A model generated the notes under the pieces. The model was not told where the DNA came from. It did not search any database and saw only the letters and a list, made by a program, of their open reading frames with translations. Below, piece by piece: positions 1 to 64,000 of a DNA stretch of 64,000 nucleotides. The DNA is taken from NCBI GenBank assembly GCA_019359675.1, contig JAHHGX010000085.1, positions 62,001 through 126,000 on the forward strand, written 5' to 3'. The stretch comes from Calothrix sp. FI2-JRJ7 (lineage in GTDB: Bacteria; Cyanobacteriota; Cyanobacteriia; Cyanobacteriales; Nostocaceae). Positions within the stretch are counted from its first letter, which is position 1, and every line of letters starts with the position of its first letter. The position numbers were made by a program, and so were the translations under genes.

Positions 1-72
1 ATTTATATTGGGCGCGAATAAAGAAAAAGATAAGTACATAGGTACGTATTAAAAAAAGGAGAACCAGTAACT

Positions 73-711
73 GTGTCTGTAGGTATTCTCGGCACCAAAC
101 TGGGCATGACTCAAATTTTTGACGAAGCAGGAGCTGCAATTCCTGTTACGGTCATTCAAGCGGGGCCATGCACTGTTACACAAGTAAAGACAAAACAGAC
201 CGACGGTTACTCTGCCATTCAGGTTGGCTATCGTGAAGTGAGACCCAAATCTTTGAATAAGCCAAAGTTGGGACATTTAGCAAAGTCGGAAGCGACTTCT
301 TTGCGTCACTTACGGGAATATCGCATTGAAAATTCTAGCGAGTATTCTTTAGGTCAACAGATTCTGGCAGATATTTTTAGCGCAGGTCAAATAGTTGACG
401 TATGCGGTACTAGTATTGGTCGAGGTTTTGCGGGTAACCAAAAACGCAATAACTTCGGTCGAGGACCCATGTCACACGGTTCTAAAAACCACCGTGAACC
501 AGGTTCGATTGGTGCGGGTACAACCCCTGGTCGTGTTTTTCCTGGTATGCGGATGGCTGGTCGTCTCGGTGGTAAGCAGGTAACTATTAAAAAGTTAACT
601 GTCATTAGAGTTGATACTGAACGTAATTTGTTGCTAATCAAGGGAGCTATTCCTGGCAAACCTGGAGCTTTAGTAAACGTCGTCCCTGCCAATTTAGTCG
701 GTAGACAATAG
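73..711 (+). CDS. rplC: 50S ribosomal protein L3
   Basis: This is large-subunit protein L3, which binds 23S rRNA early in assembly. The 212-residue length and the conserved central stretch around residues 130-165 ([20 protein letters not shown], then [18 protein letters not shown]) identify it clearly. The start is a GTG preceded by AAAGGAG about 12 bases upstream. It is the first gene of the + strand ribosomal cluster here. No rpsJ lies upstream within the window, as expected where cyanobacteria keep rpsJ with the str genes. Identification is certain; the start is very likely. Confidence 0.98.
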
Positions 712-736
712 TAGCTTTCTTACGAAGGAAACAGAA

Positions 737-1369
737 ATGTTTGAGTATACAGTCAAAAACTGGCAAGGTGAGCAAGTCGAGCAAAAGACGTTCGAGATGA
801 AGGTTGCTAAGGAATCATCAGCTTCTCACATCGTGCATCGCGCTTTGATTCGACAATTGCACAATTCGCGTAGCGGAACGGCAAATACTAAAACCCGTTC
901 GGAAGTACGAGGTGGTGGTCGCAAACCTTGGCGCCAAAAAGGAACTGGTCGCGCACGTGCTGGTTCGATACGTTCACCGTTGTGGCGTGGTGGTGGTGTC
1001 ATTTTCGGACCCAAACCGCGTGATTTTAACTTAGATATGAACCGCAAAGAGCGGAAGTTAGCACTGCGTACAGCATTTGCTAGTCGAATTGACGATTTAA
1101 TCGTTGTAGAAGAATTTGGCACCCAAATGTCTCGTCCTAAAACCAAAGAATTGGTGCAGGCAATAACTCGCTGGGGTTCAGAACCTGAGAACAAAACTTT
1201 ATTAATAACTTCGGAACGTGACGATAACGTTTATTACTCAGCTCGTAACGTTGAAAATTTAAAGTTGTTACCAGCAAATCAACTCAACGTTTACGACTTG
1301 TTAAACGCTGACAAAATTATTGTTACCGCCAATGCTTTAGAACAAATTCAGGAGGTCTACAGTGCCTAG
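737..1369 (+). CDS. rplD: 50S ribosomal protein L4
   Basis: This is large-subunit protein L4, 210 residues. The basic loop [20 protein letters not shown] (about residues 59-78), which lines the exit tunnel, is diagnostic. It lies 25 bases after rplC with an AAGGAA ribosome-binding site, and its 3' end overlaps rplW by 8 bases, so the two are probably translationally coupled. In some bacteria L4 represses its own operon; nothing in this sequence shows whether that happens here. Confidence 0.98.
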
Positions 1370-1676
1370 AATTGAGACCCGTGACTTACCTGATTTAGTA
1401 CGTCGCCCGATTGTGACTGAAAAAGCGACTATTAATATGGAGCAAAATAAATATACTTTTGAAGTTGCTCCAAAAGCTGACAAATTGCAAATTAGAGAAG
1501 CAATTGAAAGCTTATTTGATGTCAAAGTTGTAAAAGTCAACACTGCAAACCCACCACGTAAAAAACGTCGTGTAGGTAAGTTTGTTGGCTACAAGCCCCA
1601 TTACAAGCGTGCGATAGTCACTGTCGCTCCTGGGGATGAAGAGAAAATTAGAAAAGTCCTATTCCCAGAAGTGTAA
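1362..1676 (+). CDS. rplW: 50S ribosomal protein L23
   Basis: This is large-subunit protein L23 (104 residues), a docking site at the tunnel exit for trigger factor and SRP. The start is a GTG placed inside the end of rplD, with AGGAGG just upstream. Conserved features are [12 protein letters not shown] near the N terminus and the basic loop [22 protein letters not shown]. Ten bases separate it from rplB. Confidence 0.97.
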
Positions 1677-1685
1677 AAAAGCAAA

Positions 1686-2549
1686 ATGGGTACTCGTTCT
1701 TTCCGTCCCTATACTCCCAGTACGCGACAAGTCACAATTTCGGACTTCGCAGAAATTACTAAAAAAGACCCAGAAAAGTCTTTAACCGTCTACAAACACC
1801 GCGCTAAAGGTCGTAACAACCAAGGACGCATTACATGTCGTCATCGCGGTGGTGGACACAAAAGACTTTATCGGATTATCGATTTTAAACGCGACAAGCG
1901 CAATATTCCGGCAAACGTCATCGCTATTGAGTACGACCCAAACCGTAACGCTCGCATTGCGCTTGTGCAATACGAAGACGGCGAAAAGCGTTATATCATT
2001 CAACCTGCTGGTTTAGCAGTTGGAACAATTATAATCGCGGGTCCAACTTCTCCAATTGAAATTGGCAACGCATTACCTTTAGCTAATATTCCTTTGGGTA
2101 CTACAGTTCACAACGTAGAACTCAAAGCTGGTAAAGGTGGTCAAATCGTGCGTTCGGCAGGCGCCGCAGCTCAAGTAGTAGCTAAAGAAGGCGATTATGT
2201 AACTTTGAAATTACCTTCAACTGAAGTCCGTATGGTGCGTCGCGAATGCTACGCCACAATTGGACAAGTAGGTAACGTAGAAGCGCGTAACCTCAGTGCA
2301 GGTAAGGCAGGGCGTAATCGTTGGAAAGGGCGCCGTCCTACGGTTCGTGGTAGCGTAATGAACCCAGTAGACCACCCACATGGAGGTGGTGAAGGTCGGG
2401 CGCCTATCGGTCGTTCCGGGCCTGTTACACCTTGGGGTAAACCAGCGTTGGGTATGAAAACCCGTAAGCGTAAGAACCCAAGTTCTAAATATATAGTACG
2501 TCGTCGTCGTAAGACATCGAAACGTGGACGCGGCGGACGCGAATCATAA
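1686..2549 (+). CDS. rplB: 50S ribosomal protein L2
   Basis: This is large-subunit protein L2 (287 residues), needed for subunit joining and the peptidyl-transferase centre. The signature [21 protein letters not shown] near residues 228-248 contains the histidine important for activity. The C terminus is strongly basic. After its stop codon a perfect 30-base palindrome separates it from rpsS, unusual in such a compact operon. Confidence 0.98.
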
Positions 2550-2556
2550 ATTTGTT

Positions 2557-2586
2557 TGTAGAGACCGAATTAATTCGGTCTCTACA
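2557..2586. repeat. Perfect 30-bp palindrome, GTAGAGAC family
   Basis: Fifteen bases (TGTAGAGACCGAATT) are followed directly by their reverse complement. The outer GTAGAGAC...GTCTCTAC boxes match palindromes at 5896, 29271, 30654 and 62232, while the inner bases differ between copies. It lies in the rplB-rpsS spacer and would form a long RNA hairpin in the operon transcript. Confidence 0.9.
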
Positions 2587-2619
2587 CACCCCAACCCTAT
2601 CCAACTAAAAATTTTTGTT

Positions 2620-2898
2620 ATGGGTCGTTCTCTAAAAAAAGGTCCCTTTGTTGCAGACCATTTGCTGAAAAAAGTAGATAGGCTTAACGCTTCTAATAGA
2701 AAAGAAGTTATTAAAACTTGGTCGCGTGCTTCGACAATTCTGCCACAAATGGTTGGACATACAATTGCTGTACACAACGGTAGACAGCATGTGCCTGTGT
2801 TTGTAAGTGACCAAATGGTTGGTCATAAATTAGGCGAATTTGCTCCTACACGTACCTATCGTGGTCATGCTAAGAGCGATAAGAAAGGTGGGAGATAG
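2620..2898 (+). CDS. rpsS: 30S ribosomal protein S19
   Basis: This is small-subunit protein S19 (92 residues), located in the head next to S13 and the A-site finger. It starts at the ATG giving [19 protein letters not shown], the canonical N terminus. A longer reading frame opens upstream but would translate through the palindrome and rplB end, so it is rejected. The conserved segments [11 protein letters not shown] and [13 protein letters not shown] are present. Confidence 0.97.
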
Positions 2899-2906
2899 AA
2901 GAAACT

Positions 2907-3275
2907 ATGCCAAAAACTGAAGTTACTAGCCCAGAAGTCAAAGCTATCGCGCGCTTTGTACGCATGTCTCCTTTAAAAGTGCGACGTGTTCTCGACCAAA
3001 TACGCGGACGCTCTTACCGCGAAGCTTTGGTAATTCTAGAGTTTATGCCTTATCGCTCGTGCGACCCAGTTTTAAAGTTATTGCGAAGTGCAGCAGCTAA
3101 CGCTGAACATAACAATGGACTTAACCGTGCGGAACTAGTAATTACACAAGCTTTTGCTGACCAAGGCCCAGTTTTAAAGCGTTTTCAACCTAGAGCGCAA
3201 GGTCGAGCATACCAAATTCGCAAACCAACGTGTCATATAACTCTTGCTGTAGCTGCTGGTGCAGTTGCGGAATAA
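2907..3275 (+). CDS. rplV: 50S ribosomal protein L22
   Basis: This is large-subunit protein L22 (122 residues), whose hairpin loop reaches into the exit tunnel. The core [20 protein letters not shown] and the loop-end pattern [21 protein letters not shown] are typical. It follows rpsS by 8 bases. Length is normal for cyanobacteria. Confidence 0.97.
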
Positions 3276-3319
3276 GAAATGAAAAACTTCTACAGTAAGA
3301 AATTTTAGAGGAAGTATTT

Positions 3320-4108
3320 GTGGGACAGAAGATTCATCCAGTAGGTTTTCGCCTAGGGATTACACAAGAACATCAATCTCGTTGGTTTGCTGACCCCAGT
3401 CGTTACCCAGAGCTTCTGCAAGAAGATTATAAGCTTCGTAAATATATAGAAGAAAAACTGGGTAGATACGCACAAAACAACGCCGGAATTTCAGAAGTAC
3501 GGATTGAGCGTAAAGCCGATCAAATTGACCTTGAAGTTCGTACAGCTAGACCTGGTGTTGTTGTTGGTCGTGGTGGTCAAGGTATTGATTCACTCAGAAC
3601 CGGGTTACAACAACTTTTAGGCAGCAATCGTCAAATTCGTATCAACGTTGTTGAAGTACAGCGAGTTGACGCTAACGCTTTCTTAATTGCTGAGTATGTA
3701 GCACAGCAACTCGAACGTCGGGTTTCGTTCCGTCGTGTAGTTCGCCAAGCAATTCAGCGCGCGCAACGTGCGGGTGTACAAGGTATCAAAATTCAAGTAA
3801 GCGGTCGTCTCAACGGTGCTGAAATTGCACGTACAGAGGCTTCGCGTGAAGGTAGTGTGCCTTTACATACTTTACGTGCTGATATCGATTACTCTTATTG
3901 CACTGCGAAAACTATTTACGGAATCCTTGGTATCAAAGTTTGGGTATTCAAGGGAGAAATTATTCCTGGTCAAGAAGACCGCGAATTGCCGCCAGTAGCA
4001 CGTGACCGTGGAGACCGCGACCAGCGTGGAGACCGCGACCAGCGTCGTCGTGGTGGTGGTGCTGGGCGGCGCCGTCAACAGTTTGAAGACCGTTCAAATG
4101 AAGGATAA
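3320..4108 (+). CDS. rpsC: 30S ribosomal protein S3
   Basis: This is small-subunit protein S3 (262 residues), part of the mRNA entry channel. It has an N-terminal KH domain ([14 protein letters not shown] near residue 80) and the S3 C-terminal domain. The start is a GTG with GAGGAAG upstream. The C-terminal tail beyond about residue 225 is an Arg/Asp/Gly-rich extension in which RGDRDQ is repeated, from a tandem DNA repeat near 4006-4045. The tail varies between species and probably reflects slippage. Confidence 0.97.
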
Positions 4109-4152
4109 ATAGATTTTGGATTTCTAAAATCTAAAATGTTTGGTACCCAATT

Positions 4153-4662
4153 ATGTTAAGTCCAAGAAGAACTAAATTCCGCAAACAGCAACGCGGACGA
4201 ATGAAAGGGTTGGCATCGCGCGGTAGCTCTTTGTCGTTTGGAGATTTTGCACTTCAAGCACAAGAGCCATGCTGGATTACTTCCCGACAAATCGAAGCTT
4301 CACGCCGTGCGATGACTCGTTATATTCGTCGGGGTGGTAAAATCTGGATTCGTATTTTCCCTGACAAACCTGTAACAATGCGTCCTGCTGAAACCCGGAT
4401 GGGTTCTGGTAAGGGAAACCCAGAATTTTGGGTAGCTGTTGTGAAACCCGGTCGAATTTTGTTTGAAATTGCTGGTGTTAGTGAAGAAATTGCACGCGAA
4501 GCAATGCGTTTGGCATCATTTAAACTGCCAATCAAAACAAAATTTATTTCGCGTACTCAAATCGAACCATCTGTTGATATAGATGATAGCGAAGCCGTTG
4601 CAAATGAAGCAGTTGCAAATGAAGCAGTTGCCAGCGAGCCAGTTTTGAGTGAACAGGAGTAG
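4153..4662 (+). CDS. rplP: 50S ribosomal protein L16 with acidic C-terminal extension
   Basis: This is large-subunit protein L16, which helps organise the A-site tRNA elbow region. The first 138 or so residues ([19 protein letters not shown] ... [12 protein letters not shown]) are a complete, normal L16. About 30 extra residues follow, rich in Glu/Ala/Val, with the unit EAVAN repeated from near-identical 15-base DNA repeats at about 4592-4640. L16 is usually about 140 residues, so the tail is unusual. The stop codon lies 4 bases before rpmC. Confidence 0.97.
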
Positions 4663-4665
4663 GTA

Positions 4666-4881
4666 ATGGCACTTTCCAAAGTTTCAGAAGCAAGAGAATT
4701 GAGCGACGAGCAACTGTCAGAACAAATAACCGCAGTTAAAAAGCAGTTATTTCAGTTGCGTTTACAAAAAGCCACACGTCAGTTGGAAAAACCTCACCAG
4801 TTTCGTCATGCTCGTCACCGTCTCTCGCAGTTGTTAACTGTAGAAAACGAGCGTAAACGTGAAGCAGCGAAACAAAGTTAG
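4666..4881 (+). CDS. rpmC: 50S ribosomal protein L29
   Basis: This is large-subunit protein L29 (71 residues), near the tunnel exit beside L23. It is a two-helix protein with the typical [24 protein letters not shown] pattern. It begins 4 bases after rplP with AGGAG inside the end of that gene, and is followed 9 bases later by rpsQ. Confidence 0.95.
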
Positions 4882-4889
4882 GAGACATT

Positions 4890-5126
4890 ATGGCACTTAA
4901 AGAACGAGTTGGTTTAGTGGTTAGCGACAAAATGCAAAAGACGGTAGTTGTTGCCGTTGAAAACCGCGCTCCACATCCTAAGTACAAAAAAATTGTTGTG
5001 AAGACCAAGCGTTACAAAGCTCACGACGAAGAGAATCAGTGTAAAATTGGCGACCGTGTTCGCATTTCTGAAACTCGTCCTTTGAGCAAAACCAAACGCT
5101 GGAAAGTCACAGAAATCCTCAAATAA
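4890..5126 (+). CDS. rpsQ: 30S ribosomal protein S17
   Basis: This is small-subunit protein S17 (78 residues), an early 16S rRNA binder with an OB fold. Conserved segments are [18 protein letters not shown] at the N terminus and [19 protein letters not shown] near the end. A ribosome-binding site AGGAGA precedes the ATG. Confidence 0.97.
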
Positions 5127-5180
5127 GACTAAAAATGTAAATCGTGCTTTCACGGTTTCACAAGTTAAGGAGAACAAATC

Positions 5181-5549
5181 GTGATTCAGCAGCAAAGCTA
5201 TTTAAATGTCGCAGATAACAGCGGCGCCCGTAAATTAATGTGTATCCGCGTATTGGGTGCAGGTAACAGCCGTTACGGTTTCATTGGCGACCGCATTATC
5301 GCCGTCGTTAAAGATGCTTCACCCAACATGGCAGTTAAAAAGTCTGATGTTGTTGAAGCAGTTATCGTTCGGACTCGTCATACTATCCGTAGAGATAGTG
5401 GCATGAGTATTCGTTTTGACGACAACGCCGCAGTCATCATTAACAAAGATGGAAATCCTAGAGGTACTCGCGTTTTTGGACCAGTAGCTCGCGAACTGCG
5501 TGATAAAAGCTTTACCAAAATTGTATCGCTGGCGCCGGAGGTTCTGTAA
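5181..5549 (+). CDS. rplN: 50S ribosomal protein L14
   Basis: This is large-subunit protein L14 (122 residues), which contacts 16S rRNA in the intersubunit bridge. It starts at GTG with AAGGAG upstream; the N terminus [20 protein letters not shown] is canonical. Its stop codon TAA shares its last A with the ATG of rplX, indicating translational coupling. Confidence 0.98.
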
Positions 5550-5899
5550 TGGGTAAAACAAAAGAAAAACCCAAATTTCACAAGATGCACGTCAAAACAG
5601 GTGATACCGTTCAGGTAATCACAGGCAAAGACAAAGGCAAAGTAGGGGAAATCATGAAAGCGTTTCCTCAAGACAGCGAAGTCATTGTTAAAGGCGTAAA
5701 CATCAAAACAAAACACGTCAAACCCCAAGCAGAAGGGGAATCTGGACGTATTGTTACCCAAGAGTACCCCATTCACAGTTCCAACGTCATGCTGTACTCC
5801 ACGAAGCAAAACGTCGCTAGTCGCGTTTGCTACACAGTAACAGCCGAAGGAAAGAAAGTGCGGATGCTCAAGAAAACCGGGGAAATTGTTGACAAGTAG
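5549..5899 (+). CDS. rplX: 50S ribosomal protein L24
   Basis: This is large-subunit protein L24 (116 residues), an assembly initiator with a KOW motif ([20 protein letters not shown] near residues 15-34). It overlaps the rplN stop by one base. Its own TAG stop codon is formed by the left edge of a palindromic repeat (5896-5923), so insertion of the repeat may have set or replaced the end of the gene. Confidence 0.97.
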
Positions 5900-5923
5900 A
5901 GACGTGATTAATCACGTCTCTAC
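5896..5923. repeat. Perfect palindrome, GTAGAGAC family, at the rplX stop codon
   Basis: GTAGAGACGTGATT is followed by its exact reverse complement, giving a 28-bp palindrome. It shares the outer GTAGAGAC/GTCTCTAC boxes with the copy between rplB and rpsS. The first bases supply the TAG stop codon of rplX. Confidence 0.9.
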
Positions 5924-5986
5924 ACGACGAATTTATTACTTTTTTCCTGACCAAGACCAGGGACTAATACGACCCTTCTAAGATTT

Positions 5987-6532
5987 ATGGCAAATACACT
6001 CAAAACTACATATCAGGAAACAATTGTTCCTAAACTGATTAAACAGTTTGAATATACGAACGTTCACCAAGTTCCCAAGGTGATTAAAGTTACTGTTAAC
6101 CGAGGAATGGGAGAGGCAGCGCAAAACGCGAAATCTCTCGAAGCTTCATTGGCTGAAATTGCTTTGATTACGGGACAAAAGCCAGTTGTCACGCGCGCTA
6201 AAAAAGCGATTGCGGGCTTCAAAATTCGTCAGGGAATGCCCGTTGGTATCATGGTGACATTACGTGGTGAGCGGATGTACTCGTTTTTAGAACGATTCAT
6301 CAATTTGACATTGCCACGTATCCGTGACTTTCGTGGTGTTAGTCCAAAAAGTTTTGACGGACGCGGTAATTATACACTCGGTGTTCGTGAACAATTGATA
6401 TTCCCTGAAGTCGAATACGACAAAGTTGACCAAATTCGCGGGATGGATATTTCCATCATTACAACTGCGAAGAGCGACGAAGAAGGTCGCGCGTTGTTAA
6501 AAGAAATGGGTATGCCCTTTCGCGACCAGTAA
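5987..6532 (+). CDS. rplE: 50S ribosomal protein L5
   Basis: This is large-subunit protein L5 (181 residues), the 5S rRNA and P-site tRNA contact in the central protuberance. Conserved segments are [32 protein letters not shown] and [20 protein letters not shown]. The 87-base gap after rplX carries the palindrome and no gene; rpsN, which lies after rplE in E. coli, is absent here, as usual in cyanobacteria. Confidence 0.98.
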
Positions 6533-6553
6533 TTTAACCATTAGAGGGTAAAG

Positions 6554-6955
6554 ATGGCGGCAAACGATACAGTTGCAGATATGCTTACGCGCATCCGCAA
6601 TGCTAACATGGCGCGGCATCAGACTACAGAAGTGCCCGCAACCAGAATGACTCGCAGTATTGCAAAAGTTCTTCGTGAAGAAGGCTTTATTGGTGAGTTT
6701 GAAGAGAAAGGTGAAGGTATCAAAACGAACTTACTAATTGCCTTGAAGTATAAAGGCAAAAGTCGTCAACCTTTAATCACCGCTTTAAAAAGAGTTAGCA
6801 GACCCGGACTTCGCGTTTATTCAAACCGAAAAGACCTGCCACGAGTTTTAGGTGGTATTGGTATTGCGATTATTTCAACATCCAGTGGCATTATGACCGA
6901 CCGTGAAGCACGTCGTCAAAATGTTGGTGGTGAAGTACTTTGCTACGTTTGGTAA
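6554..6955 (+). CDS. rpsH: 30S ribosomal protein S8
   Basis: This is small-subunit protein S8 (133 residues), a primary 16S rRNA binder. The N terminus [18 protein letters not shown] and the C-terminal [27 protein letters not shown] are typical. It follows rplE by 21 bases and precedes rplF by 15. Confidence 0.98.
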
Positions 6956-6970
6956 AGAAAGGTAAACATT

Positions 6971-7516
6971 ATGTCTCGAATTGGTAAACGTCCAATTACG
7001 GTTCCTGCCAAAGTTCAAATAACTTTGGATGGCGCCAAAATAGTTGTCAAAGGTCCAAAAGGCGAACTGTCTCGTGAATTGCCAGTTAACATTCAGGTTG
7101 TCCAAGATGGAGAAACTCTTAATGTTAACCGTATAGATGATTCGCGCGTATCTCGCCAACTACACGGTTTGTGCCGGACACTTGTTGCCAACATGGTTGA
7201 AGGTGTCTCAACTGGTTTTCAACGGAAGTTGGAAATTCAAGGGGTTGGTTATCGTGCTGCTCTTTCCGGACGTAACTTAGTATTAAGCATGGGTTACAGT
7301 CACCAAGTACAAATACCACCACCAGATGGTATCCAATTTGCAGTAGAAAATCCCACAAACGTTGTAGTTAGCGGTTACGACAAAGAAATCGTTGGTAACA
7401 CTGCTGCGCGTATTCGTGCGGTTCGACCACCTGAACCTTACAAAGGTAAAGGTATTCGTTACGCCGGTGAGGTGGTTCTTCGTAAGGCTGGTAAGACTGG
7501 TAAGGGTAAGAAGTAA
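6971..7516 (+). CDS. rplF: 50S ribosomal protein L6
   Basis: This is large-subunit protein L6 (181 residues), near the factor-binding site. It begins [12 protein letters not shown] and contains the C-terminal signature [26 protein letters not shown]. It is followed after 3 bases by rplR. Confidence 0.98.
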
Positions 7517-7519
7517 AAT

Positions 7520-7882
7520 ATGAAACTGACTCGCAAAGAATCGAAACAACGGCGCCATCGTCGTGTTCGCGGCAAAGTAAATGGTTCACCCGAACGTCCA
7601 AGATTATCAGTCTTCCGCTCGAACGACCATATATATGCCCAAGTTATTGATGATGCTGCTCAACATACTTTAGTCGCAGCTTCAACAGTCGAACCTGAAA
7701 TTAAATCAAAAATAAGTTCAGGTGGAAATTGCTCTGCTTCAACCGAAGTCGGTAGGTTAATTGCCCTGCGTGCGCGAGAAAAAGGTATTACCCAAGTTGT
7801 GTTTGACAGAGGTGGAAACCTTTATCACGGTCGCATTAAAGCTCTCGCCGACGCTGCGCGCGAAGCTGGTTTAAGTTTTTAA
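7520..7882 (+). CDS. rplR: 50S ribosomal protein L18
   Basis: This is large-subunit protein L18 (120 residues), which binds 5S rRNA with L5. The pattern [34 protein letters not shown] and the C-terminal [24 protein letters not shown] are diagnostic. No rpmD follows rpsE downstream, consistent with the absence of L30 from cyanobacteria. Confidence 0.97.
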
Positions 7883-7918
7883 GACAGTCGCAAACAACAA
7901 AACGAGAGAGTAATACAT

Positions 7919-8449: not shown

Positions 8450-8489
8450 TAGATGAGTTTTAGTATAATTAAGGACTAAGTATATAGTC

Positions 8490-8936: not shown

Positions 8937-9015
8937 GCCTCGGCGCCCACTTCTTTGCTAAAAGCAAGCTCCGTGCATGTTGGCGCCTCCGTTCGTTCTC
9001 TAGGTAACACCCGCT

Positions 9016-19056: not shown

Positions 19057-20097
19057 ATGGCTTATATAGTACGTAACAACTATGATGTGAAAGTAGGAAC
19101 TCATATAGCTTTGCAAAAAGGTGTGGCGAAGCGAGGTGTATTTGAGGCGCCTTCTAATTACAATGTTTATACAGCAAACCAGGCTCCAGCAAAACCATTT
19201 TTGAAATGGGCAGGAGGGAAGGGTCAGCTTCTAGAACAAATAAGTAGATATTTGCCGCAAGGCTTGTTAAATGGTTCAATCAAAAGGTATGTTGAGCCGT
19301 TTGTGGGAGGAGGGGCAATGTTTTTCTATCTTGCTTCTTCGGGTTATCAGTCGAGCATTGATGAGTTTTTTATTTATGATGTTAATCCTGAATTGATACT
19401 TGCCTATAAAACTATTAAACTTGATGTGTATGCATTGATTGATGCTTTATTAAAGATTCAATCTAAGTATTGGTCTATGTCAGATATTGAAAAAAGCCAG
19501 TATTTTTATCATGTGCGGCAATTATTTAATTCAAAGCGAAGAAGTATTGATTTTAATGTATTTAGTAGTAATTGGGTAGAGCGTGCAGCTAAGATTATTT
19601 TTTTGAACCGTACTTGTTTTAATGGCTTGTTTAGAGTTAATTCCAAAGGTGAGTTTAATGTTCCTTGTGGCAAGTATAAAAAGCCTTTAATTTGTAATGT
19701 GGATAATTTGAAGGCTATTTCTTTAGTACTGCAAAAAACTCATATTGAGTTGGGAGATTTTACGAAGTGCAAAGATTTTATTGATGATAAAACTTTTGTA
19801 TATTTTGACCCTCCTTACCGACCTATAAGCAGTACCGCTAATTTTACTGGTTATTCTCAAAATATATGGCATGATAGTGAGCAGTTAAGATTGAGGGACT
19901 TTTTTGCTGAGTTGGATGGTTTCGGCGCCAAGCTGTTATTGAGTAATTCAGACCCTAAAAACGAAAATATGAACGATAACTTCTTTGAACATGCCTATAA
20001 TGCCTATAGAATTGAGCGAGTAAAAGCTGCGCGTAAAATTAACTGTAACGCATCCAAACGCGGTCAAATTAACGAACTCTTAATTATGAATTACTAG
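19057..20097 (+). CDS. DNA adenine (N6) methyltransferase, Dam/DpnII family, GATC type
   Basis: The protein (346 residues) is an alpha-class N6-adenine methyltransferase. It has the SAM-binding motif PFLKWAGGKGQLLEQI (about residues 48-63), VEPFVGGGAMFFYL (about 79-92), and the catalytic motif DPPYRP (about 252-257) with NRTCFNGLFRVNSKGEFN between them. The partner endonuclease downstream is DpnII-like, so the target is most probably GATC. About 45 residues precede the first motif, longer than usual, and include a GGCGCC site; the true start could lie further in. Confidence 0.93.
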   Translation: MAYIVRNNYDVKVGTHIALQKGVAKRGVFEAPSNYNVYTANQAPAKPFLKWAGGKGQLLEQISRYLPQGLLNGSIKRYVEPFVGGGAMFFYLASSGYQSSIDEFFIYDVNPELILAYKTIKLDVYALIDALLKIQSKYWSMSDIEKSQYFYHVRQLFNSKRRSIDFNVFSSNWVERAAKIIFLNRTCFNGLFRVNSKGEFNVPCGKYKKPLICNVDNLKAISLVLQKTHIELGDFTKCKDFIDDKTFVYFDPPYRPISSTANFTGYSQNIWHDSEQLRLRDFFAELDGFGAKLLLSNSDPKNENMNDNFFEHAYNAYRIERVKAARKINCNASKRGQINELLIMNY

Positions 20098-20100
20098 TAG

Positions 20101-20159
20101 GGTGCGTGACGCCATGACAATCTAGCAACGAAGCAAGTAAACTAGTAGCGTCACGCACC
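20101..20159. repeat. GGTGCGTGACGC inverted repeat between the M and R genes
   Basis: GGTGCGTGACGC (20101-20112) is matched by GCGTCACGCACC (20148-20159), 12 perfect base pairs with a 35-base loop. The same element occurs at 50206-50264 and, as a variant, at 21672-21732. Here it would form a hairpin in the methyltransferase-endonuclease transcript and may lower endonuclease expression. Confidence 0.8.
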
Positions 20160-20183
20160 TTATTTATAATAAACAAGCAAAGT

Positions 20184-21110
20184 ATGAAAAATAGTCAGGT
20201 ATTTCATGATTTTTTGGGAAGCGCTGCTACCAAAGATGTATTTAAGCATTTGAAAAATACTTTGACTGACTCTATCACAATATGGGACTATTTTGTCAAT
20301 TGGCAAAAAGTCCTATCCAATTTTAAAAGCGTTGAAATACATTTGAATACTCTAAATTATTTAATTGGAAAAAATAATATAGAGCAAGAGTTTAGAGAAC
20401 TATTACAAACTTATCCAGGCATTTACAGCGCAATTCCAATTTTAATAGCTTGTCGAACAAAAAATTTTAGAATTCTAACTAGCTTTACAGAAGGACATTT
20501 TCAATATAAGGGGTTTAATTTTAGCAGTCAAAGTCTTTTATTTCCAGAAAATATTGATGCCGCAGTAGAGTTTGTCAGAGAAACTGGTGTGCTGGAACTA
20601 TTTAAAAACCGTACTATTAAGAGTATTCCAGATTATGTATTAGGAATAGAGGTGGGACTCGATAGTAACGGTAGAAAAAATCGTGCTGGGGATACGATGG
20701 AAATGATAGTTGAAGAATTAGTAAAGCCGATTTGTAATGCGAGTAATTTTACATATATTAAACAAGCTACTGCTGAGAAAATTTTGATTGAGTGGGATAT
20801 TGTAGTGGAAGTAGATAAATCAAGCAGAAGATTTGATTTTGCAATTAATAATCAAGAGTTGATTTATTTAATTGAAGTCAATTTCTATGGTGGAGGTGGT
20901 TCTAAGTTGAAAGCCACCGCAGGTGAGTATAAGGGTTTGTATGATTTTTTAACGGCGCAAAATCACAAATTTATTTGGATTACTGATGGTTTGGGTTGGA
21001 AGAGTACTTTAAAACCTTTGGAAGAGACTTTTAATTATATTGACTATACATTAAATTTGAATATGGCTTCTAGTGGGTTACTCGCTGAAATTATTAAACA
21101 ACAGCTTTAG
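20184..21110 (+). CDS. Type II restriction endonuclease, DpnII/MboI family (GATC)
   Basis: The 308-residue protein matches the DpnII family. The characteristic C-terminal half runs GLDSNGRKNRAGDTMEMIVE, then RRFDFAIN ... LIYLIEVNFYGGGGSKLKATAGEY, and FIWITDGLGWKSTLKPLEE. The PD-(D/E)xK-like core is D (RFDF), E (IEVN) and K (SKLK). It would cut unmethylated GATC. It follows the methyltransferase on the same strand and is intact. Its 3' end overlaps the convergent gene by 33 bases. Confidence 0.92.
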   Translation: MKNSQVFHDFLGSAATKDVFKHLKNTLTDSITIWDYFVNWQKVLSNFKSVEIHLNTLNYLIGKNNIEQEFRELLQTYPGIYSAIPILIACRTKNFRILTSFTEGHFQYKGFNFSSQSLLFPENIDAAVEFVRETGVLELFKNRTIKSIPDYVLGIEVGLDSNGRKNRAGDTMEMIVEELVKPICNASNFTYIKQATAEKILIEWDIVVEVDKSSRRFDFAINNQELIYLIEVNFYGGGGSKLKATAGEYKGLYDFLTAQNHKFIWITDGLGWKSTLKPLEETFNYIDYTLNLNMASSGLLAEIIKQQL

Positions 21111-53706: not shown

Positions 53707-53796
53707 TTGGTATGCTTTTGGTAATAAGTCCTTTCGGAGGCGCCAACCAAAAAGCTTTAAGATTGGGACTATGTGTGGTGTGGATAATAAAGGAGT

Positions 53797-54549: not shown

Positions 54550-54608
54550 CTCATTTAAATGTATATTTTTAATTATATCTGTAGAGCATTTGCTTTACAG
54601 ATATTTAT

Positions 54609-54678: not shown

Positions 54679-54963
54679 GGTTTCTTATATTTAATAAACT
54701 CTTCATAAATGTATAAATAATATAAAGTTTTGATGAATATAAACATAACGTCACTGAGTTACTTAACATTTCGTAGTTAAGCTTATAGGGTTATGTAAGT
54801 AGGCTACTACTAGTGGATTTACTGAGATATTTTTCGATATACGACTAATAACTAGTAGCTTTCCCATTGAGGAATGTAGTTAGCACTTGCTAGCTTATAT
54901 CAGGTTGTATATATCTATGACTTTCATCAGTAAATATAAAGCAGATAACAAGGGATATAGAGC

Positions 54964-57086
<2,123 letters not shown>

Positions 57087-57110
57087 ATGTCCACAGCACT
57101 TGATATATAA

Positions 57111-57141
57111 AAAATGTCCACAATTTGTGGACATTTTTTAT
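57111..57141 (+). terminator. Rho-independent terminator after fcl
   Basis: AAAATGTCCACA (57111-57122) pairs perfectly with TGTGGACATTTT (57126-57137) across ATT, followed by further T residues. This ends the GDP-fucose transcript. Confidence 0.85.
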
Positions 57142-57247
57142 ATTCATACCACTTATAGAAACTGTCCAATCCTTTAATAAATCTTAACCTTGCTAATATA
57201 TTTCTAAAGTTAGTTGAAAAAATAACAAACTTGAGGACTAGAAAACC

Positions 57248-58576
57248 GTGCGCTTAATTAATCGAGTTATCAGTTCAGTATTTTTAAGCTTTTTGGCTTT
57301 AGGTGGTTGCGCTCCCAGAAATACTTCGGGTCAAGGTAACGTGATATTCATTCACCCCGACGGTACAAGTCCCTCCCACTGGGGCGCTGGACGCATGTTA
57401 CATTATGGTCCAGATGGCAGGTTGAATTGGGATAAGATGTCCAACCTAGGTGTGTACTTAGGACATATGAAAAACCAACTTACTGGTACTTCCAACGCAG
57501 GTGCAGTGACTCATGCGACGGGGGTAAAGGTAAACGCTGACTCATTTGGCTTAGATGAAAATTTTAGACCTGTGGTTGCAGCATCAGGGAAAAGTGAGAC
57601 TATCGTTCAGGAAGCAGTTAAAGCTGGGAAAAGTACGGCTATCATTAACTCAGGTATGATTCATGAACCGGGTACAGGTGCTTTTGTTGCCAGGGTTCCC
57701 ACTAGACGCAATTTTGCCGAAATTACCAAGCAAATTGTTGAGTCGAATGTGGATATTATTTTGGGTGGTGGTGAGATGTGGTATTTACCCAAAGGAACCG
57801 CAGGTAGACACACCGCAGCAGATCAAAGTCAGCGGGCGGATGGGGTAAATTTAATTGAAGTTGCCAAGCAGAAAGGGTATACGGTTGTATATACTCGCGA
57901 TGAATTATTAAAGTTACCACCTGATACCAAGAAAATACTGGGTGTATTTGCAGCAGATGATACTTACAATGATGCACCAGAAGAGCAATTAAAGTTGGAA
58001 AATAAAGGTTTCTACGTACCAACGGCGCCTACTGTTGCGGAGATGCTTGACGTAACTTTGAAAAATCTTGCTGCGAAGAATAAGAATTTTATAGTAGTGT
58101 TGGAAGAAGAAGGTACCGATAACTTTTCTAACTTTAACAATGCTGGAGGCGCCTTGGAAGCACTCAAGCGTGCGGATGATGCTGTTGGTGTCGGAATCAA
58201 GTTTATTGAGAATAACCCAAATACTCTCATGGTTACTGCTGCTGATAGTGATGCGGGTGGTTTGGAAGTTGTAGGTGTCACTGAAAATAGTTTCCCCTTC
58301 GATAAACCGCTACCCGACAAAAGCGAAAATGGGGCGCCTTGGGATGGTAAAGATGGTACAGCAACTACACCCTTTGTTTCGGCGCCGGATAAACAAGGAA
58401 AACGTTTTCCGTTTGCTGTCGGTTGGTCAACCGGAGGAGATAATACAGGTTCAATAGTTTCTAAAGCACATGGTTTGAATGCTGATAAGTTACCCAAGAC
58501 TTTAGATAATACAGATATCTACCGTTTAATGTATTTTACATTGTTCGGAAAGGAGATTGCACCATACACTAAGTAG
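57248..58576 (+). CDS. Alkaline phosphatase-like lipoprotein
   Basis: The 442-residue protein starts at GTG with a lipoprotein signal (VFLSFLALGGCAPRN). It has the alkaline phosphatase fold: FIHPDGTSPSHWGAGRML, the nucleophile region TGTSNAGAVTHATGVKVN, INSGMIHEPGTGAF, and TAADSDAGGLEVV. Compared with E. coli PhoA, the DSA nucleophile motif reads TSN and the DHxxGG zinc motif lacks its histidines, so it belongs to a divergent branch. It is probably periplasmic or surface-bound and releases phosphate; regulation by phosphate is not visible. Confidence 0.87.
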   Translation: MRLINRVISSVFLSFLALGGCAPRNTSGQGNVIFIHPDGTSPSHWGAGRMLHYGPDGRLNWDKMSNLGVYLGHMKNQLTGTSNAGAVTHATGVKVNADSFGLDENFRPVVAASGKSETIVQEAVKAGKSTAIINSGMIHEPGTGAFVARVPTRRNFAEITKQIVESNVDIILGGGEMWYLPKGTAGRHTAADQSQRADGVNLIEVAKQKGYTVVYTRDELLKLPPDTKKILGVFAADDTYNDAPEEQLKLENKGFYVPTAPTVAEMLDVTLKNLAAKNKNFIVVLEEEGTDNFSNFNNAGGALEALKRADDAVGVGIKFIENNPNTLMVTAADSDAGGLEVVGVTENSFPFDKPLPDKSENGAPWDGKDGTATTPFVSAPDKQGKRFPFAVGWSTGGDNTGSIVSKAHGLNADKLPKTLDNTDIYRLMYFTLFGKEIAPYTK

Positions 58577-58652
58577 AAGCTCCGTCTCTATTTACAGCAA
58601 TTGATTAAGGGTTGGCTTACCAATTTTTATAAGCCAACCAAATTATTTTTAT

Positions 58653-59171
58653 TTACTGATTGGGTAGCTTAACACGTAATAATTCTCGAAATTCATTAAT
58701 CTGTTCATCATCGCTAAAAGCCCGTTTGGGGAATAAATTAAAGCAGTTGCTAGATTGATAAACCATAAATAAATTAGGAGTTTCTCGCCAGTGTGTATAA
58801 ATCAACCATTTCATTTTTGACTCTGATAATGCTGTATTAATCTGTAATCCATCTTCAAATGTTTCTACACTCATTTCACTTTTCATGCCAGTTTGACTAT
58901 TCCAAGCGCGTTTAATTGCAAAATTTCGAGCAATACTGATACCGAAATATACAGTAGCTAATAACAATAAATTAGGCAGAAGGACACTTATTAAAATTTC
59001 ACTGATAGAGGCGCCTCCTTGTATAATTAAAGGAAGTATTGATATTAATAGGAGAATTCCAATCAAGACTAAGTAATATCTCAATAATCCTTTTTGGCAG
59101 TGCGTTTGATTTGCTTCTTGAATGTCATTTACATTCAGGCGATATTCAAATTTAATGACAATAATTATCAC
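58653..59171 (-). CDS. YcxB-like membrane protein
   Basis: The 172-residue protein has two hydrophobic spans (LVLIGILLLISILPLIIQ and ISEILISVLLPNLLLLATVYFGI, about 34-80) and a C-terminal domain with pattern SVETFEDGLQINTALSESKMKWLIYTHWRETPNLFMVYQSSNCFNLFPKRAFSDDEQINEFRELL, typical of YcxB-like proteins. Its function is unknown. It stands alone, convergent with the phosphatase. Confidence 0.75.
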   Translation of the reverse strand: MIIIVIKFEYRLNVNDIQEANQTHCQKGLLRYYLVLIGILLLISILPLIIQGGASISEILISVLLPNLLLLATVYFGISIARNFAIKRAWNSQTGMKSEMSVETFEDGLQINTALSESKMKWLIYTHWRETPNLFMVYQSSNCFNLFPKRAFSDDEQINEFRELLRVKLPNQ

Positions 59172-59288
59172 TTATATATTGGATTGACGGAAAATCATAG
59201 CTTTGTTATATACGTTATAGATTAGAATTTTATGCAGTGAGTGGATGGCAAGATTCCGCAGGGCGGATAAAAAATATTAGTGTAGTTC

Positions 59289-60810
59289 TTACAGCCCATT
59301 TCCAATCAAAATGAAAGGCGCCCAGTAGTAAGGATGTGAAAAGCGAGTGGAGTTTTCCCCATGCAATAAACTGAGTTGCGCCTGTCGTAAAGCCTGAACC
59401 TTTGTGGGTTGAGTGTTGCTAGCTAAATTACTATAAAATTGCTGCATTAATTGGCTGGTGCTGCTATCGTTGACTGACCATAGAGATGCTAGCACTGCTT
59501 TAGCTCCTTTCTTAATAAAGTAGAAACCAACACCATTAATTTCCACCCCATCCTGTCCTTTCTCACCAAGTCCAGTTTGGCAAGCAGATAGAACAACCAG
59601 ATGTACATCCGCCAAATCTTGTAAGGTTTCAATCTGAGGAATGGTTAACTTTTCACCAGTACCTAACATTAAAAAGGAATCATCACGACTTCCAGGTAAG
59701 AAGACTCCGTGAGTAGCCATATGTAAAATTTTATGACCCCGCAAATTATTTCTTAAAGCAGGAAAATCAAAAGCCTTATTAAGGAATTTTTCACCAGGAT
59801 AAATGCCTTTGGTATCGGTAGGCTTTTGCTTGACAATTGTATCTAATTCTGATGGTACATTGAGTAAGGCTCTAAACCCAGGCACAGCTTCAGATAAACC
59901 CATGCCTAGTACAAGGGTATTTTGAATTCCAGGTGGTAAACGGTCTTTGGTATCTGTCAAGCTAGCAGATAGTATTGTCGAAACAGTATAGTTTTCTACG
60001 ACATATTTTTTACCATCAAATAAGGCACTGATGGGAATGTAGCGCGTTGCTCGATCTAAAGAAAAGACCAAATTTTGTACTTTGTTTTGTTTGAGTTCTG
60101 CTTCAACGGGTTTAATCAACCAGTTTATCGCCTGCTGATACTGTCCTGATTTGCGGTACAAATAACCAAGGTTTGCTAGAGAAGATGTCTCTAATCCTCG
60201 GTTTTTTAAATTTCTGATACCGAGAGAATACAACTCAATAGATTGACAATTGAGTTGATTAATCTCTAAATTATTCTTGGCAAACTGTTGAAAGTATTCA
60301 AGCGCTTTTGGTTTATCTTCCAAAGACTTGTAAGCGTTGCCAAGGTGAGACAAAAGCCTTGATTCAATTTTTTTATCTTTTAGTTCTCGCGCGACAAGCA
60401 AAGCTTGCTGATAATAATTTAGTGATTCTTGGTACTTTTTTACTTTATAGTTATAAGCGTTACCAATATATTCTAAATTTATGGCTTGATAATCGCATTT
60501 TTTAATTGACTTTGCAATTTCTAAAGATTGTTGCCAATAATCAATTGCCTTTTGATTATCATTGAGAGAATTATAGTATAAATTACCTATATTATTCAGA
60601 ATATTAGATTCAACGTCTTGCCGTTTAATTTCCCGTGACACGACTAAAGCTTGTTGAAAATAATCAATTGCTTTTGGGAAGTCACTCAATGCTTCATAAG
60701 TCTGACCTAGAGAAATTAATGCTCCCGTTTCACTTTGGCGATGTTGAATTTCTTTTGCTAATTTTAATAATTGCTGATAGTAGCTAATAGCTTTTTGGTA
60801 ATCTTGGATT
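59289..60810 (-). pseudogene. TPR-CHAT protease gene, 5'-truncated
   Basis: The frame is open from a stop near 60815 and encodes at least six tetratricopeptide repeats (YQKAISYYQQLLKLAKEI, FPKAIDYFQQALVVSREI, NQKAIDYWQQSLEIAKSI, YQESLNYYQQALLVAREL) followed by a CHAT (caspase-like) domain with the His in LHMATHGVFLPGS and the Cys in LVVLSACQTGLGEKG. The catalytic half is complete. The N terminus is missing: a TTG at 60689 could start a 466-residue product, but TPR sequence continues upstream and stops dead where an opposing gene begins. The link between TPR and CHAT (INWLIKPVEAEL) also looks shortened. Confidence 0.75.
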
Positions 60811-62740
60811 TTTTAGCGCTACTGATAAAAACGTCCCTTCACCTTTATTGACGGTAAACCCTTCGGCTTTTCTGTTTAATCAAATGAATGCGGTGCCAAT
60901 AGTAAATAAATCAGTTGCACCAGCAGGACAAACTCCGGCAGGAAGTTCTCTGTTTGGACTGAGAGTTAAAGACGGACAAAGTTTGCGACTGGTAGGTGGT
61001 GATGTAGACAGCAGCGATGGAGATTTAATTGCTTTAGGTGGCCAGGTAGAGATTTCGGGAAAGAACATAGTAGCAGTTAAAAATATTGGTACTATTGGTT
61101 ATTTTGGTAGTCCTGCTGGCACCATTACTCTCAAGGCTACTGGCAATATTACCGTTTCTGGTGAGCTAGATTCCTTTGCTTTTGCTCGACTTGGCAATGC
61201 AGGTAATGGCGCCCCTATTTCCCTTAATACCTCAAATGGCACTATCAATATTACAGGTGATTTAAATTCTTGGCCTTTCACACAATCTGGTAATACAGGC
61301 GATACACAGGATATCTTCGCTTTTTCAGTTAGCAACGAATCGCCAATTAACCCGAACGGTATCTCAAAAAAGGGAGGAGCTATTGCTTTAACAGCGCTTC
61401 ATGACATAACTACAGGTTCGCTTATCAGCTACGGTGGCACTGAGTCAAACAATATTACTGTCACGACTAACGGAGCTTTTGAAGCCGCTAACAGTATTAT
61501 TTCTACAAGTACAAATGGTGCAGGTAAAAGCGGTGATATCGAAATTCGCGTGCGGTCAGTCGCTTTGAAAGATGGAACACAAGTATCAACTTCTACACCA
61601 ACTCAGGGTACTGGAGGCAATTTAACAATAATTGCTCCCGAATTTGTGCGTTTGAGTGGTTCTAGCCCAGAACTTGTACGTTATTTCTATCGATACGTAG
61701 TTAATAAATCACAGCGTGAAGTAGAAAGTATTTTAGCAGAACTACGCGAGTATCTTTTAGAACCTGATAGAACAGAGGAAGTACTGGCGCTCTCAAAAAT
61801 AGTCCATGACTGGTCAATACCATCAAAAATTGAATCAAATTTAGTAAATAGTCAAGTTAATACTCAAGTTAATACTCTCGTTTTTGTACTAGATGGCGCC
61901 TTACGAAATATACCAATGGCTGCATTGTATGACGGTCAGAAATATTTGGTGGAAAAATACGCTGTTGCTTTAAGCTTAGGACTTCAGTTAATTGCCCCTA
62001 AACCTTTAGCAAAAACACAATTCAACGTCTTAGCAGCAGGGTTAGTACAACCACCAAAAGAATTCTCAAAATTTCCACCTCTACCAGAAATTAAGTCTGA
62101 GTTTAATTTGATTGCCCAAGCAGGAGTTTCTACAAAACAATTGATAGATAAGGACTTTACCAGCAGTGCCCTAGAGAAAAATATACAGCGAATTTTAGGT
62201 AAATGAGGCACACACATAATGCCCGAATCCTTGTAGAGACGCGATTAATCGCGTCTCTACACGTACCGCATGAACGAGCAATCTGCTGTAAATACAACAA
62301 CCTTTAATATCCTGCATTTAGCAACCCACGGTCAATTTAGCTCTCGTCCTGAAAATACTTTTATCCTAGCGGCAGATGGTCCAATAAATGTCTTACAGTT
62401 CGATAACTTACTGCGTCATCAAGATGAAACTCGCTCAGAAGGTTTGTCGATGCTTATTTTAAGTGCTTGTCAAACAGCAGCAGGGGATAACCGTGCAGCA
62501 TTGGGTTTGGCAGGGGTATCTGTGAAAGCAGGAGCGCGTAGTACCCTGGCTTCACTGTGGCACATTAGCGATAAATCTACCGCTATCTTAGTCGGCGAAT
62601 TTTACCGTGAATTAGTGCAAAATAAGGTAACAAAAGCTGAAGCCTTGCGTAATGCCCAAATCAAATTGTTAAGAGATTACCCAAATTACAGTCGTCCTGG
62701 ATATTGGGCGCCTTATGTTTTAGTTGGCAACTGGCTTTGA
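60811..62740 (+). pseudogene. Hemagglutinin-like/CHAT gene, 5'-truncated and interrupted by a palindrome
   Basis: The frame starts abruptly with TDKNVPSPLLTVNPSAFLFN and runs through a filamentous-hemagglutinin-like beta-helix (RVKDGQSLRLVGGDVDSSDGDLIALGGQVEISG) into a CHAT domain. An insertion of about 60 bases at 62204-62269 brings in-frame stops (TGA at 62204, TAG and TAA in the palindrome) between LEKNIQRILGK and NEQSAVNTTTFNILHLATHGQFSS. After it the same frame continues with the catalytic HLATHG and LILSACQTAAGDNRAALG. An ATG at 62270 could yield a 156-residue catalytic fragment. Confidence 0.8.
62232..62261. repeat. Perfect 30-bp GTAGAGAC palindrome inside a CHAT gene
   Basis: TGTAGAGACGCGATT is followed by its exact complement. 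It interrupts the CHAT-domain reading frame, adding TAG and TAA stops, with reading frame otherwise preserved on both sides. It is the clearest evidence here that this repeat family is mobile. Confidence 0.9.
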
Positions 62741-62764
62741 TAATTCAGGAATACTGCTCCCAAC

Positions 62765-62817
62765 CTCTGTGTCTTTGTGGTAATAATATTTACCACAGAG
62801 GCGCAGAGGGCACAGAG
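62765..62817. repeat. CTCTGTG...CACAGAG hairpin repeat
   Basis: CTCTGTGTCTTTGTGGTA faces TACCACAGAGGCGCAGAGGG...CACAGAG as an imperfect hairpin between convergent genes. Fragments of the same element occur at about 23641 and 30190. Confidence 0.6.
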
Positions 62818-62837
62818 AAGGAAGTTTGTTAGTGTTG

Positions 62838-64000
62838 TCATTTATTAGAAAGAGGCGCCCCCACATTTTTGAAACGTTCTTTAGCTTCTTGGAATGCTGT
62901 TTGCATAACAGATTGAATTTGTTTCGGGTCAGGTTTTTTGCCTCCCACTACATCACCGAAATAAACACAAGCAGCTTCACCTAATGCCCATGTATATGAA
63001 GCAGCCCAATATGCAGCAATTACACTACCAAAACCAGGTATAAATTTAACTAGTTCTCGTCCTATTACTTGCGCCAGAAAACCACCGGCAATTGCACTAA
63101 CGATACCTCCAGCTTGTGATTGCGTTAAATTTTGACCGTATAATTTTCCTAATAATCCAACCATTGATACTTGTAGTGCCGTTAATACTGGCATGGTCGC
63201 AAATGGTAACGGAACTGCGGCAAGTGTCGCTGCCATTACACAAAAAGCATACATATAGCGTCGCGCGACATTCCGATACAAGTTGCCAATTTGATTACTT
63301 GCTTGTTTATCTAAATCTAATAATTGGTAAATAGCGCGTGCTTCAGCATCGGGTAATAAATCAGCTAAAGTATCGCGTAATGTTTCTAGACCATAAAATA
63401 TTGGCTCGTAACCGTCTTCTTCTAAGGTAAAGTCAATTAAAATTGACGCATCGTACAAACCTTTAAAGTCTTCTTTAATAGCTGTATACGCGCGGTTGAC
63501 TTCTTCATAGTCAGGGGGATAGGCAGGATGATTATCTACACTCTGTGGATAAATTTCGTGTAAACAGGTGACAGCAAGTAAAAACGGAATATCTTTGTAC
63601 TCGTCTCGTAATTGTTTGGCGATTTGCCGTAATGTATCGGTGGCAAAATCGTTTATTTTTATAGTTAATATCAAAACTCTGGCGCCACGAGCTTGTTGCT
63701 GTAAATCGCCAATAAGCTCTTGAATAATACTTTGAGTATCCTGATTAACATCACCTAAGCCGACTGTATCAGTAAAAATCAACAAAGGTAAATCGTTAGA
63801 AGGGTAAGCATAACGTTCTGTATGCTGCGTATGCGGTCGAAATCCTTGTCCGACAATTTCAGGGGAGACACCCGTCAAACCTCTAACTATCGAGCTTTTA
63901 CCAGCTTGCGGTTTACCAATTAGCAAAGCTTCTGTTGTCGGTAATTGCGCCTTGACGGTTTTCAATATTTCTGCTATCTGCGTATCGCTAACGTTAAATA
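62838..64000 (-). CDS. GTPase with DUF697-like membrane domain (5' end beyond window)
   Basis: The protein has an Era/YcjX-like G domain with P-loop LIGKPQAGKSSIVRGLTG and G3 motif FTDTVGLGDV; the base-specifying NKxD motif is not evident (TCLHEIYP is in its place). The C-terminal half contains hydrophobic segments (AFCVMAATLAAVPLPFATMPVL, GGIVSAIAGGFLAQVIG, FGSVIAAYWAASYTWALG) as in DUF697 proteins. The frame is still open at base 64000 (FNVSDTQIAEIL), so the true start lies outside; a TTG at 63965 is the only internal option. Its role is unknown. Confidence 0.82.
   Translation of the reverse strand, partial: FNVSDTQIAEILKTVKAQLPTTEALLIGKPQAGKSSIVRGLTGVSPEIVGQGFRPHTQHTERYAYPSNDLPLLIFTDTVGLGDVNQDTQSIIQELIGDLQQQARGARVLILTIKINDFATDTLRQIAKQLRDEYKDIPFLLAVTCLHEIYPQSVDNHPAYPPDYEEVNRAYTAIKEDFKGLYDASILIDFTLEEDGYEPIFYGLETLRDTLADLLPDAEARAIYQLLDLDKQASNQIGNLYRNVARRYMYAFCVMAATLAAVPLPFATMPVLTALQVSMVGLLGKLYGQNLTQSQAGGIVSAIAGGFLAQVIGRELVKFIPGFGSVIAAYWAASYTWALGEAACVYFGDVVGGKKPDPKQIQSVMQTAFQEAKERFKNVGAPLSNK

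Follow-up and report, generated by a model that had tools for sequence, protein, structure and literature searches.

Does the hexamer GGCGCC hold, in this stretch of cyanobacterial DNA, the position that highly iterated palindrome 1 (HIP1, GCGATCGC) holds in most cyanobacteria? The stretch, 64 kb of the genome of Calothrix sp. FI2-JRJ7 and called the window below, had been described in a first-pass annotation as carrying about 105 GGCGCC sites some 600 bases apart, with HIP1 not seen once. Our count gives the same number of sites, and 100 dinucleotide-preserving shuffles of the window hold 6.5 on average and 12 at most.

Positions 930 to 63686 (first site 930-935, last site 63681-63686), both strands, palindromic: 105 GGCGCC sites, from the count and the shuffles.

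Ranked against all other 6-base palindromes of the window, GGCGCC comes out on top by far (z of 37.9; the runner-up, CGCGCG, has 6.5). The whole genome (8,663,394 bases in 91 contigs) contains 14,889 GGCGCC, which is one per 582 bases or 1,719 per million, and in 739 kb sampled from it the word is 18.8-fold over-represented. By the shuffles, the z and this ratio it is a clear outlier among palindromes, as is expected of an alternate HIP, and its density lies in the range of about 1000-2000 per million that goes with such words. Alternate HIPs are further expected only in genomes with little or almost no HIP1. The window has no HIP1 copy, which says little by itself with 0.5 expected; genome-wide there are 31 copies, the reversed-word control has 51, and GCGATCGC is not over-represented. 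The annotation's picture therefore extends beyond the window, with GGCGCC enriched and HIP1 scarce there as well. GGCGCC is a real and strong highly iterated palindrome throughout a genome that has almost no HIP1.

The sites had also been described as spread nearly evenly, which we do not find: their placement is random. The coefficient of variation of the spacing is 0.98 (1,034 spacings) and the variance/mean ratio is 1.08 (308 bins of 2 kb), both in a 619-kb sample. In the 739-kb sample the density is 1.86 per kb in open reading frames (ORFs) of at least 100 amino acids and 1.21 per kb outside them. The DNA-uptake signals of Haemophilus and Neisseria have a similar density and are likewise spread over genes and spacers. 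Such signals, as far as they are known, exceed six bases and lack palindromic symmetry, whereas GGCGCC is no more than a hexameric palindrome of the kind that methyltransferases recognise, and we regard an uptake function as very improbable.

The word is common throughout the genus, for which seven genomes were used: the present one (G000), Dulcicalothrix desertica PCC 7102 (G291), Calothrix sp. PCC 7103 (G292), Calothrix sp. HK-06 (G293), Calothrix sp. NIES-4105 (G294), the metagenome-assembled genome Calothrix sp. C42_A2020_038 (G295) and Calothrix sp. PCC 7716 (G296). Each of the seven has between 7,475 and 20,380 GGCGCC (about 1.15-1.72 per kb), and in samples of 20 kb to 739 kb per genome the word is over-represented 12- to 22-fold. 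For the six other genus genomes the HIP1 status was taken from CGATCG in samples of three of them, not from a genome-wide count, with 1, 4 and 2 copies observed and 27.5, 27.6 and 16.8 expected. Our comparison set consisted of 291 genomes of the class, with 16 others from the same family; these 16 have 0-283 GGCGCC and 1,285-6,449 HIP1. Probably the genus to which Calothrix PCC 7103 and Dulcicalothrix desertica belong inherited the GGCGCC HIP from an ancestor in which it was already fixed. High raw counts of GGCGCC are also found in, for example, G119, G255 and G013. Three further candidates (G244, G049 and G096) were rejected as GGCGCC-rich, with ratios of 0.8-1.2 in the sampled stretches, where composition explains the counts.

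CCGCGG, the reversed word of GGCGCC, was discarded as a neutral control. CCGCGG is the target of Eco29kI, the genome carries a restriction gene of the Eco29kI type, and each of the seven genus genomes has only 1-8 copies of the word (8 in G000). In G000 this gene and that of a 5-methylcytosine (m5C) methyltransferase adjoin each other on contig C61 (L018, 7788-11131) and form a small defence island with a neighbouring gene for a pPIWI-RE-associated nuclease; the near absence of CCGCGG is probably due to this restriction gene with its methyltransferase. Other palindromes that are nearly or fully absent from the window and the samples of this genome are TTCGAA, TGCGCA, GCATGC and GTGCAC, which suggests further restriction systems. 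CGCGCG is enriched 3.4-fold in the window, 3.9-fold in the 739 kb and 9.7-fold in G294. Among repeated words of the window, GTCTCTACA has 8 copies and AGAAACCGGG has 5; they resemble parts of interspersed repeats.

GGCGCC is conserved between relatives beyond what its composition implies. On contig C79 of G000, the sites kept in three sister genomes are 209 of 241, 196 of 226 and 79 of 95, and the other GC-only hexamers are kept in fractions of 0.66, 0.70 and 0.54 in the same sisters (BLAST pieces below 300 bases were dropped and gapped hexamers counted as changed). One could suppose that the word is merely the preferred spelling of Gly-Ala, since of 1,060 sites inside ORFs 569 are read as Gly-Ala. 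Codon usage predicts that GGCGCC would write 24 of the 1,011 Gly-Ala codon pairs in ORFs and not 569, and 491 sites are read in one of the other two frames, with a further 206 in DNA that has no ORF of 100 amino acids or more. A coding artefact is therefore already contradicted by the frame and codon-usage counts, and we give it practically no weight. Where the Gly-Ala pair is retained in the three sisters, the GGCGCC hexamer is unchanged in 157 of 177, 126 of 139 and 40 of 43 cases, versus 72 of 110, 53 of 87 and 10 of 18 for other Gly-Ala pairs. Even the synonymous positions of the word are conserved, which protein coding does not explain.

Such conservation above comparable words, at synonymous positions too, and persistence across the whole genus are also what direct selection would produce. 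GGCGCC, methylated or bound by a protein, would then be functional in chromosome organisation, recombination or repair signalling, and no biased repair would be needed. The random spacing gives no sign of a spacing requirement, which speaks against this explanation; weak selection would be compatible with it.

The annotation had suggested that GGCGCC took over the role of HIP1. That it is a genome-wide HIP where HIP1 is nearly absent holds, as described above; the takeover itself finds no support in the genes rpoB, rpoC1 and rpoC2. In codon alignments of 17 genomes (rpoC1 missing for four), four genus genomes supply 23 distinct GGCGCC places and nine relatives supply 5 HIP1 places; the two sets have 0 overlaps, with 0.18 expected by shifting, and replacement in place was set aside on this result, although so few places have low power and do not settle it. 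At the GGCGCC places the relatives often have other Gly-Ala codons, e.g. GGTGCA or GGTGCT. The word seems to arise where the protein allows it and not where HIP1 stood, within the low power of these alignments.

Why HIP1 should be missing was explained in the annotation by avoidance of GATC, which HIP1 contains. GATC is depleted both in the window (20 copies, 143 expected) and in the 739 kb of samples (204 copies, 1,709 expected), and the window encodes two adjacent, stop-free genes that fit this depletion.

Positions 19057 to 20097, forward strand: Dam-family (D12 class) N6-adenine methyltransferase of 346 amino acids (Pfam: PF02086, 2.7e-59; NCBIfam: TIGR00571 dam, 2.6e-82).
Positions 20184 to 21110, forward strand: DpnII-family restriction endonuclease of 308 amino acids (Pfam: PF04556, 4.7e-95).

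DpnII cuts GATC, and the segment 19057-21110 probably encodes a GATC methyltransferase with a GATC cutter. Proteins 85-97% identical to the Dam-family methyltransferase adjoin DpnII in the six other genus genomes, so that the pair is present in 7 of 7; in the 11 other genomes searched, DpnII was found in G087 alone. The lack of GATC, and with it the avoidance of HIP1, is probably caused by this restriction-modification pair.

The annotation had further proposed to look for a solitary methyltransferase of GGCGCC specificity. None was identified as such, but the genome has m5C methyltransferases without a restriction partner whose target is probably wider. In G000 the m5C methyltransferases comprise five long genes together with three short fragments, of which one scores below the family cut-off. 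Two related genes, A and B, whose products are 61% identical, concern us here.

G000:C79:135478-136428, outside the window: m5C methyltransferase A.
G000:C38:10026-10931, outside the window: m5C methyltransferase B.

HindVP cuts GRCGYC, and A is 66-69% identical to the methyltransferases beside HindVP genes in six family members. The target of A and B is probably the wider GRCGYC, and A is probably the enzyme behind GGCGCC; the predicted recognition of GGCGCC is based on homology and on the specificity known for HindVP. The other GRCGYC words are depleted in G000, to 0.30 of expected for GACGCC and 0.15 for GACGTC. An orthologue of A is present in all seven genus genomes, and these form a single clade with support 100/99 (in this tree G245 is left out as a partial frame, and the row G293_B is identical to G293_A from overlapping loci and is not separate evidence). 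G291 and G295 have one methyltransferase match only (E 1e-30), so a second copy is not needed for the upkeep of GGCGCC. As for neighbours, a RuBisCO-like (mtnW-like) gene adjoins A in G000 (C79; L015, 10512-11705), and by clustering five other genus genomes have a related gene at the same place beside A. A has different neighbours in HK-06 (L095).

Homologues of A with an E value of 1e-40 or better are found in 29 of the 291 class genomes, namely G000, G231 from another family of the order, and 27 others. In 5 of 5 relatives outside the genus that were scanned, the conserved ORF directly upstream of the homologue is the HindVP restriction endonuclease. We searched for HindVP (Pfam: PF09519) in 38 chosen genomes and found it in 27, precisely the 27 other carriers of an A homologue, which have 0-152 GGCGCC each. 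The 11 genomes without a match are the seven of the genus and G231, all GGCGCC-rich, and G065, G218 and G259, which are sisters of G231 and in which no homologue of A was found. A tblastn search around A at six genus loci, and around both A and B in G000, gave no HindVP remnant. Of 80 named loci with an A homologue, 6 lie in DNA enriched in GGCGCC, and all 6 belong to this genus. HindVP is damaged or partial in six of the 27 genomes: only residues 1-71 are left in G266 and G271, and the gene is in two pieces in G289, is partial in G288 and contains a stop in G245 and G105. In G266 (C1:3860360-3861445) and G271 (C72:4550-5635) these first 71 residues and the methyltransferase share one open frame of 416 amino acids as an in-frame fusion, a natural loss of the restriction part.

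Beside the excess of 12- to 22-fold in all seven genomes, the near absence of HIP1 in G000 and the conservation at synonymous positions, which are observed, we on balance favour an inferred history in three steps. A GATC restriction-modification pair, still present in the window, would have pushed down GATC and hence HIP1. The m5C methyltransferase of a HindVP-type (GRCGYC) system would have outlived its restriction enzyme and would methylate GGCGCC. As nothing cuts the site any longer, methylated GGCGCC would have been favoured and would have accumulated to a spacing of roughly 600 bases. The advantage may lie in a repair that turns mismatches and near-miss words into the methylated site, as in the methyl-C-directed mismatch repair of Elhai, or in a use that the methyl mark has for the cell. 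A methyltransferase without its nuclease may be needed for this. Loss of HIP1 may be a second condition, as Elhai proposed: G120 lost HIP1 (45 copies), kept HindVP and has 45 GGCGCC, whereas G000 and G231 lost both.

The third step can be compared with gains and losses of the word on the branches of G291 and G296. These two are sisters with G000 outside (534 informative sites versus 309 and 206), and BLAST pieces below 300 bases and gapped hexamers were left out. Losses amount to 42 of 484 sites (0.087), compared with 0.132 for other GC-only hexamers. Six gains were seen, four of them from GGTGCC or GGCACC, which is 4 of 18 opportunities at a background of 0.017 (P=2e-4). The return from GGTGCC to GGCGCC is thus favoured, and the C-to-T path of loss is not visibly suppressed, in small numbers. 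Counts of this size do not separate repair bias from selection. The ratio of 6 gains to 42 losses is the lowest among 100 abundant hexamers; we neither claim nor exclude a net erosion of GGCGCC, for an equilibrium in which neighbour words are short-lived would look the same.

In very-short-patch repair, T:G mismatches from deaminated methyl-C are restored to C:G. A repair of this kind that overshoots and also converts ordinary GGTGCC would account for the raised return from GGTGCC and GGCACC. The overshoot should deplete GGTGCC most of all, and this word is at 1.07 of expected, with most other one-base neighbours of GGCGCC at 0.21-0.87. We therefore regard this mechanism as improbable.

Several observations weigh against the three-step history that we favour. 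G087 has a DpnII gene and yet 4,660 HIP1, so that carrying a GATC restriction gene is not enough to rid a genome of HIP1; the GATC avoidance on which the annotation built is real, and it is probably due to the gene pair in the window. G266 and G271 are in effect without HindVP and have only 152 and 131 GGCGCC, with HIP1 kept at 1,393 and 1,657, so the loss of the restriction enzyme is not sufficient. At four further loci (L099, L101, L103 and L110) no HindVP homologue was found in the fetched flanks, which were all that was covered, and there is no excess of GGCGCC. Eight family members without a detected homologue of A are also GGCGCC-poor (1-283), hence low counts outside the genus are not peculiar to the HindVP-type restriction system. 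Finally, 22 of the 484 sites were lost by C-to-T at the central CG, and this matches the background rate (twice 0.0234 per site), so that neither strong protection nor an excess of deamination is visible. The last point counts against direct selection as well, as selection should lower this rate, although weak selection would agree with it; with the random spacing this leaves direct selection rather unlikely in our view.

A second lineage may have taken a similar path. G231 has 74 HIP1, 9,489 GGCGCC, a homologue of A with 54% identity and no HindVP match, and two genomes of its genus, G218 and G259, are rich in HIP1 (3,110 and 3,424). Its sister G065 has 134 HIP1 and 343 GGCGCC. In the tree the methyltransferase of G231 stands apart from A and joins those of eight genomes that all have HindVP, namely G008 and seven members of genus g45; it was therefore acquired independently. 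In the rpo genes G231 and the Calothrix genus share 6 exact GGCGCC places, with 0.36 overlaps expected. G231 is not a plain second case of the GGCGCC HIP, since in 17 stretches (288 kb; L070-L074, L258-L269) the enriched element is CRGCGCCG, a related but different word and an imperfect palindrome: CGGCGCCG occurs 342 times with 14.0 expected and CAGCGCCG 339 times with 13.9 expected, each about 24-fold, and AGCGCC (5.8-fold) exceeds GGCGCC (3.9-fold). We also rejected G231 as an intermediate stage of Elhai's model, given that both it and its sisters show an excess of other NNCGCC words. In G065 (5 stretches, 100 kb) the top 8-mers contain GGCC and are not palindromic, e.g. CAGGGCCA, with up to 9.8-fold enrichment.

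Tentatively, a site forbidden by a restriction enzyme can become a HIP that lasts as long as a genus once the enzyme is lost, the methyltransferase is kept and HIP1 is purged, and this would have happened at least twice in one methyltransferase family, with GGCGCC in the genus of PCC 7103 and CRGCGCCG in G231. The differing word of G231 and the state of G266 and G271 lower the probability that we give to this twofold origin. If it is true, alternate HIPs are stable states at the level of clades, driven by conversion towards a methylated site, which would contradict the published view that HIP1 alone is lasting. The purpose of HIP1 has long been open, and a genus with a swapped word and the probable enzymes is a natural experiment, spanning seven related genomes and a second independent lineage. 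A methyltransferase without its restriction enzyme is moreover a candidate cause that can be tested at the bench.

The annotation left it open whether GGCGCC had been described as a HIP variant. It had been: in the part of Elhai 2015 (PMC4390886) available to us, GGCGCC is the alternate HIP of Calothrix PCC 7103, which has two GRCGYC-type methyltransferases, depleted GACGCC and GACGTC, GATC at 16% of expected and a putative GATC restriction enzyme. In the proposal made there, methyl-C-directed mismatch repair creates the word, with GGTGCC to GGCGCC named as a path of one round and a set point of roughly 1 per kb in the model, and the second methyltransferase copy may have been critical. Exceptional HIPs are said to be sporadic and not found in clades, which is one of two arguments for selection on HIP1 itself; as a genus-wide trait, GGCGCC weakens this argument. 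That part of the paper does not hold the genus-wide extent, the synonymous conservation, the favoured return from GGTGCC, the G231 lineage, or the pattern of HindVP, which is undetected in the seven genus genomes and, G231 excepted, present or left as a remnant in the other carriers (27 of 27). No later paper on GGCGCC in this genus was recognised in a limited literature search.

Compared with known systems, the gene pair at 19057-21110 has the adjacent Dam-family methyltransferase and DpnII-family endonuclease of a DpnII-type GATC system and shows nothing unusual. A resembles the HindVP-adjacent methyltransferases of six family members, as in a HindVP-type (GRCGYC) system; unlike in such a system, no HindVP gene was found in the seven genus genomes and GGCGCC is abundant instead of rare. 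HIP1 of most cyanobacteria is likewise a GC-rich palindrome with hundreds to thousands of copies throughout the genome, but it is a different word, with 31 copies here as opposed to the thousands in the 16 family members, and it shares no place with GGCGCC in the rpo genes, at low power. The closest match is the HIP of Calothrix PCC 7103 (G292) as described in the available part of Elhai 2015, with the same word in the same genus, a near loss of HIP1, depleted GATC, GACGCC and GACGTC, and m5C methyltransferases of the GRCGYC type. The present case differs in being another species, in a trait carried by all seven genus genomes and not sporadic, and in its density, which at 1.15-1.72 per kb exceeds the model's set point of roughly 1 per kb.

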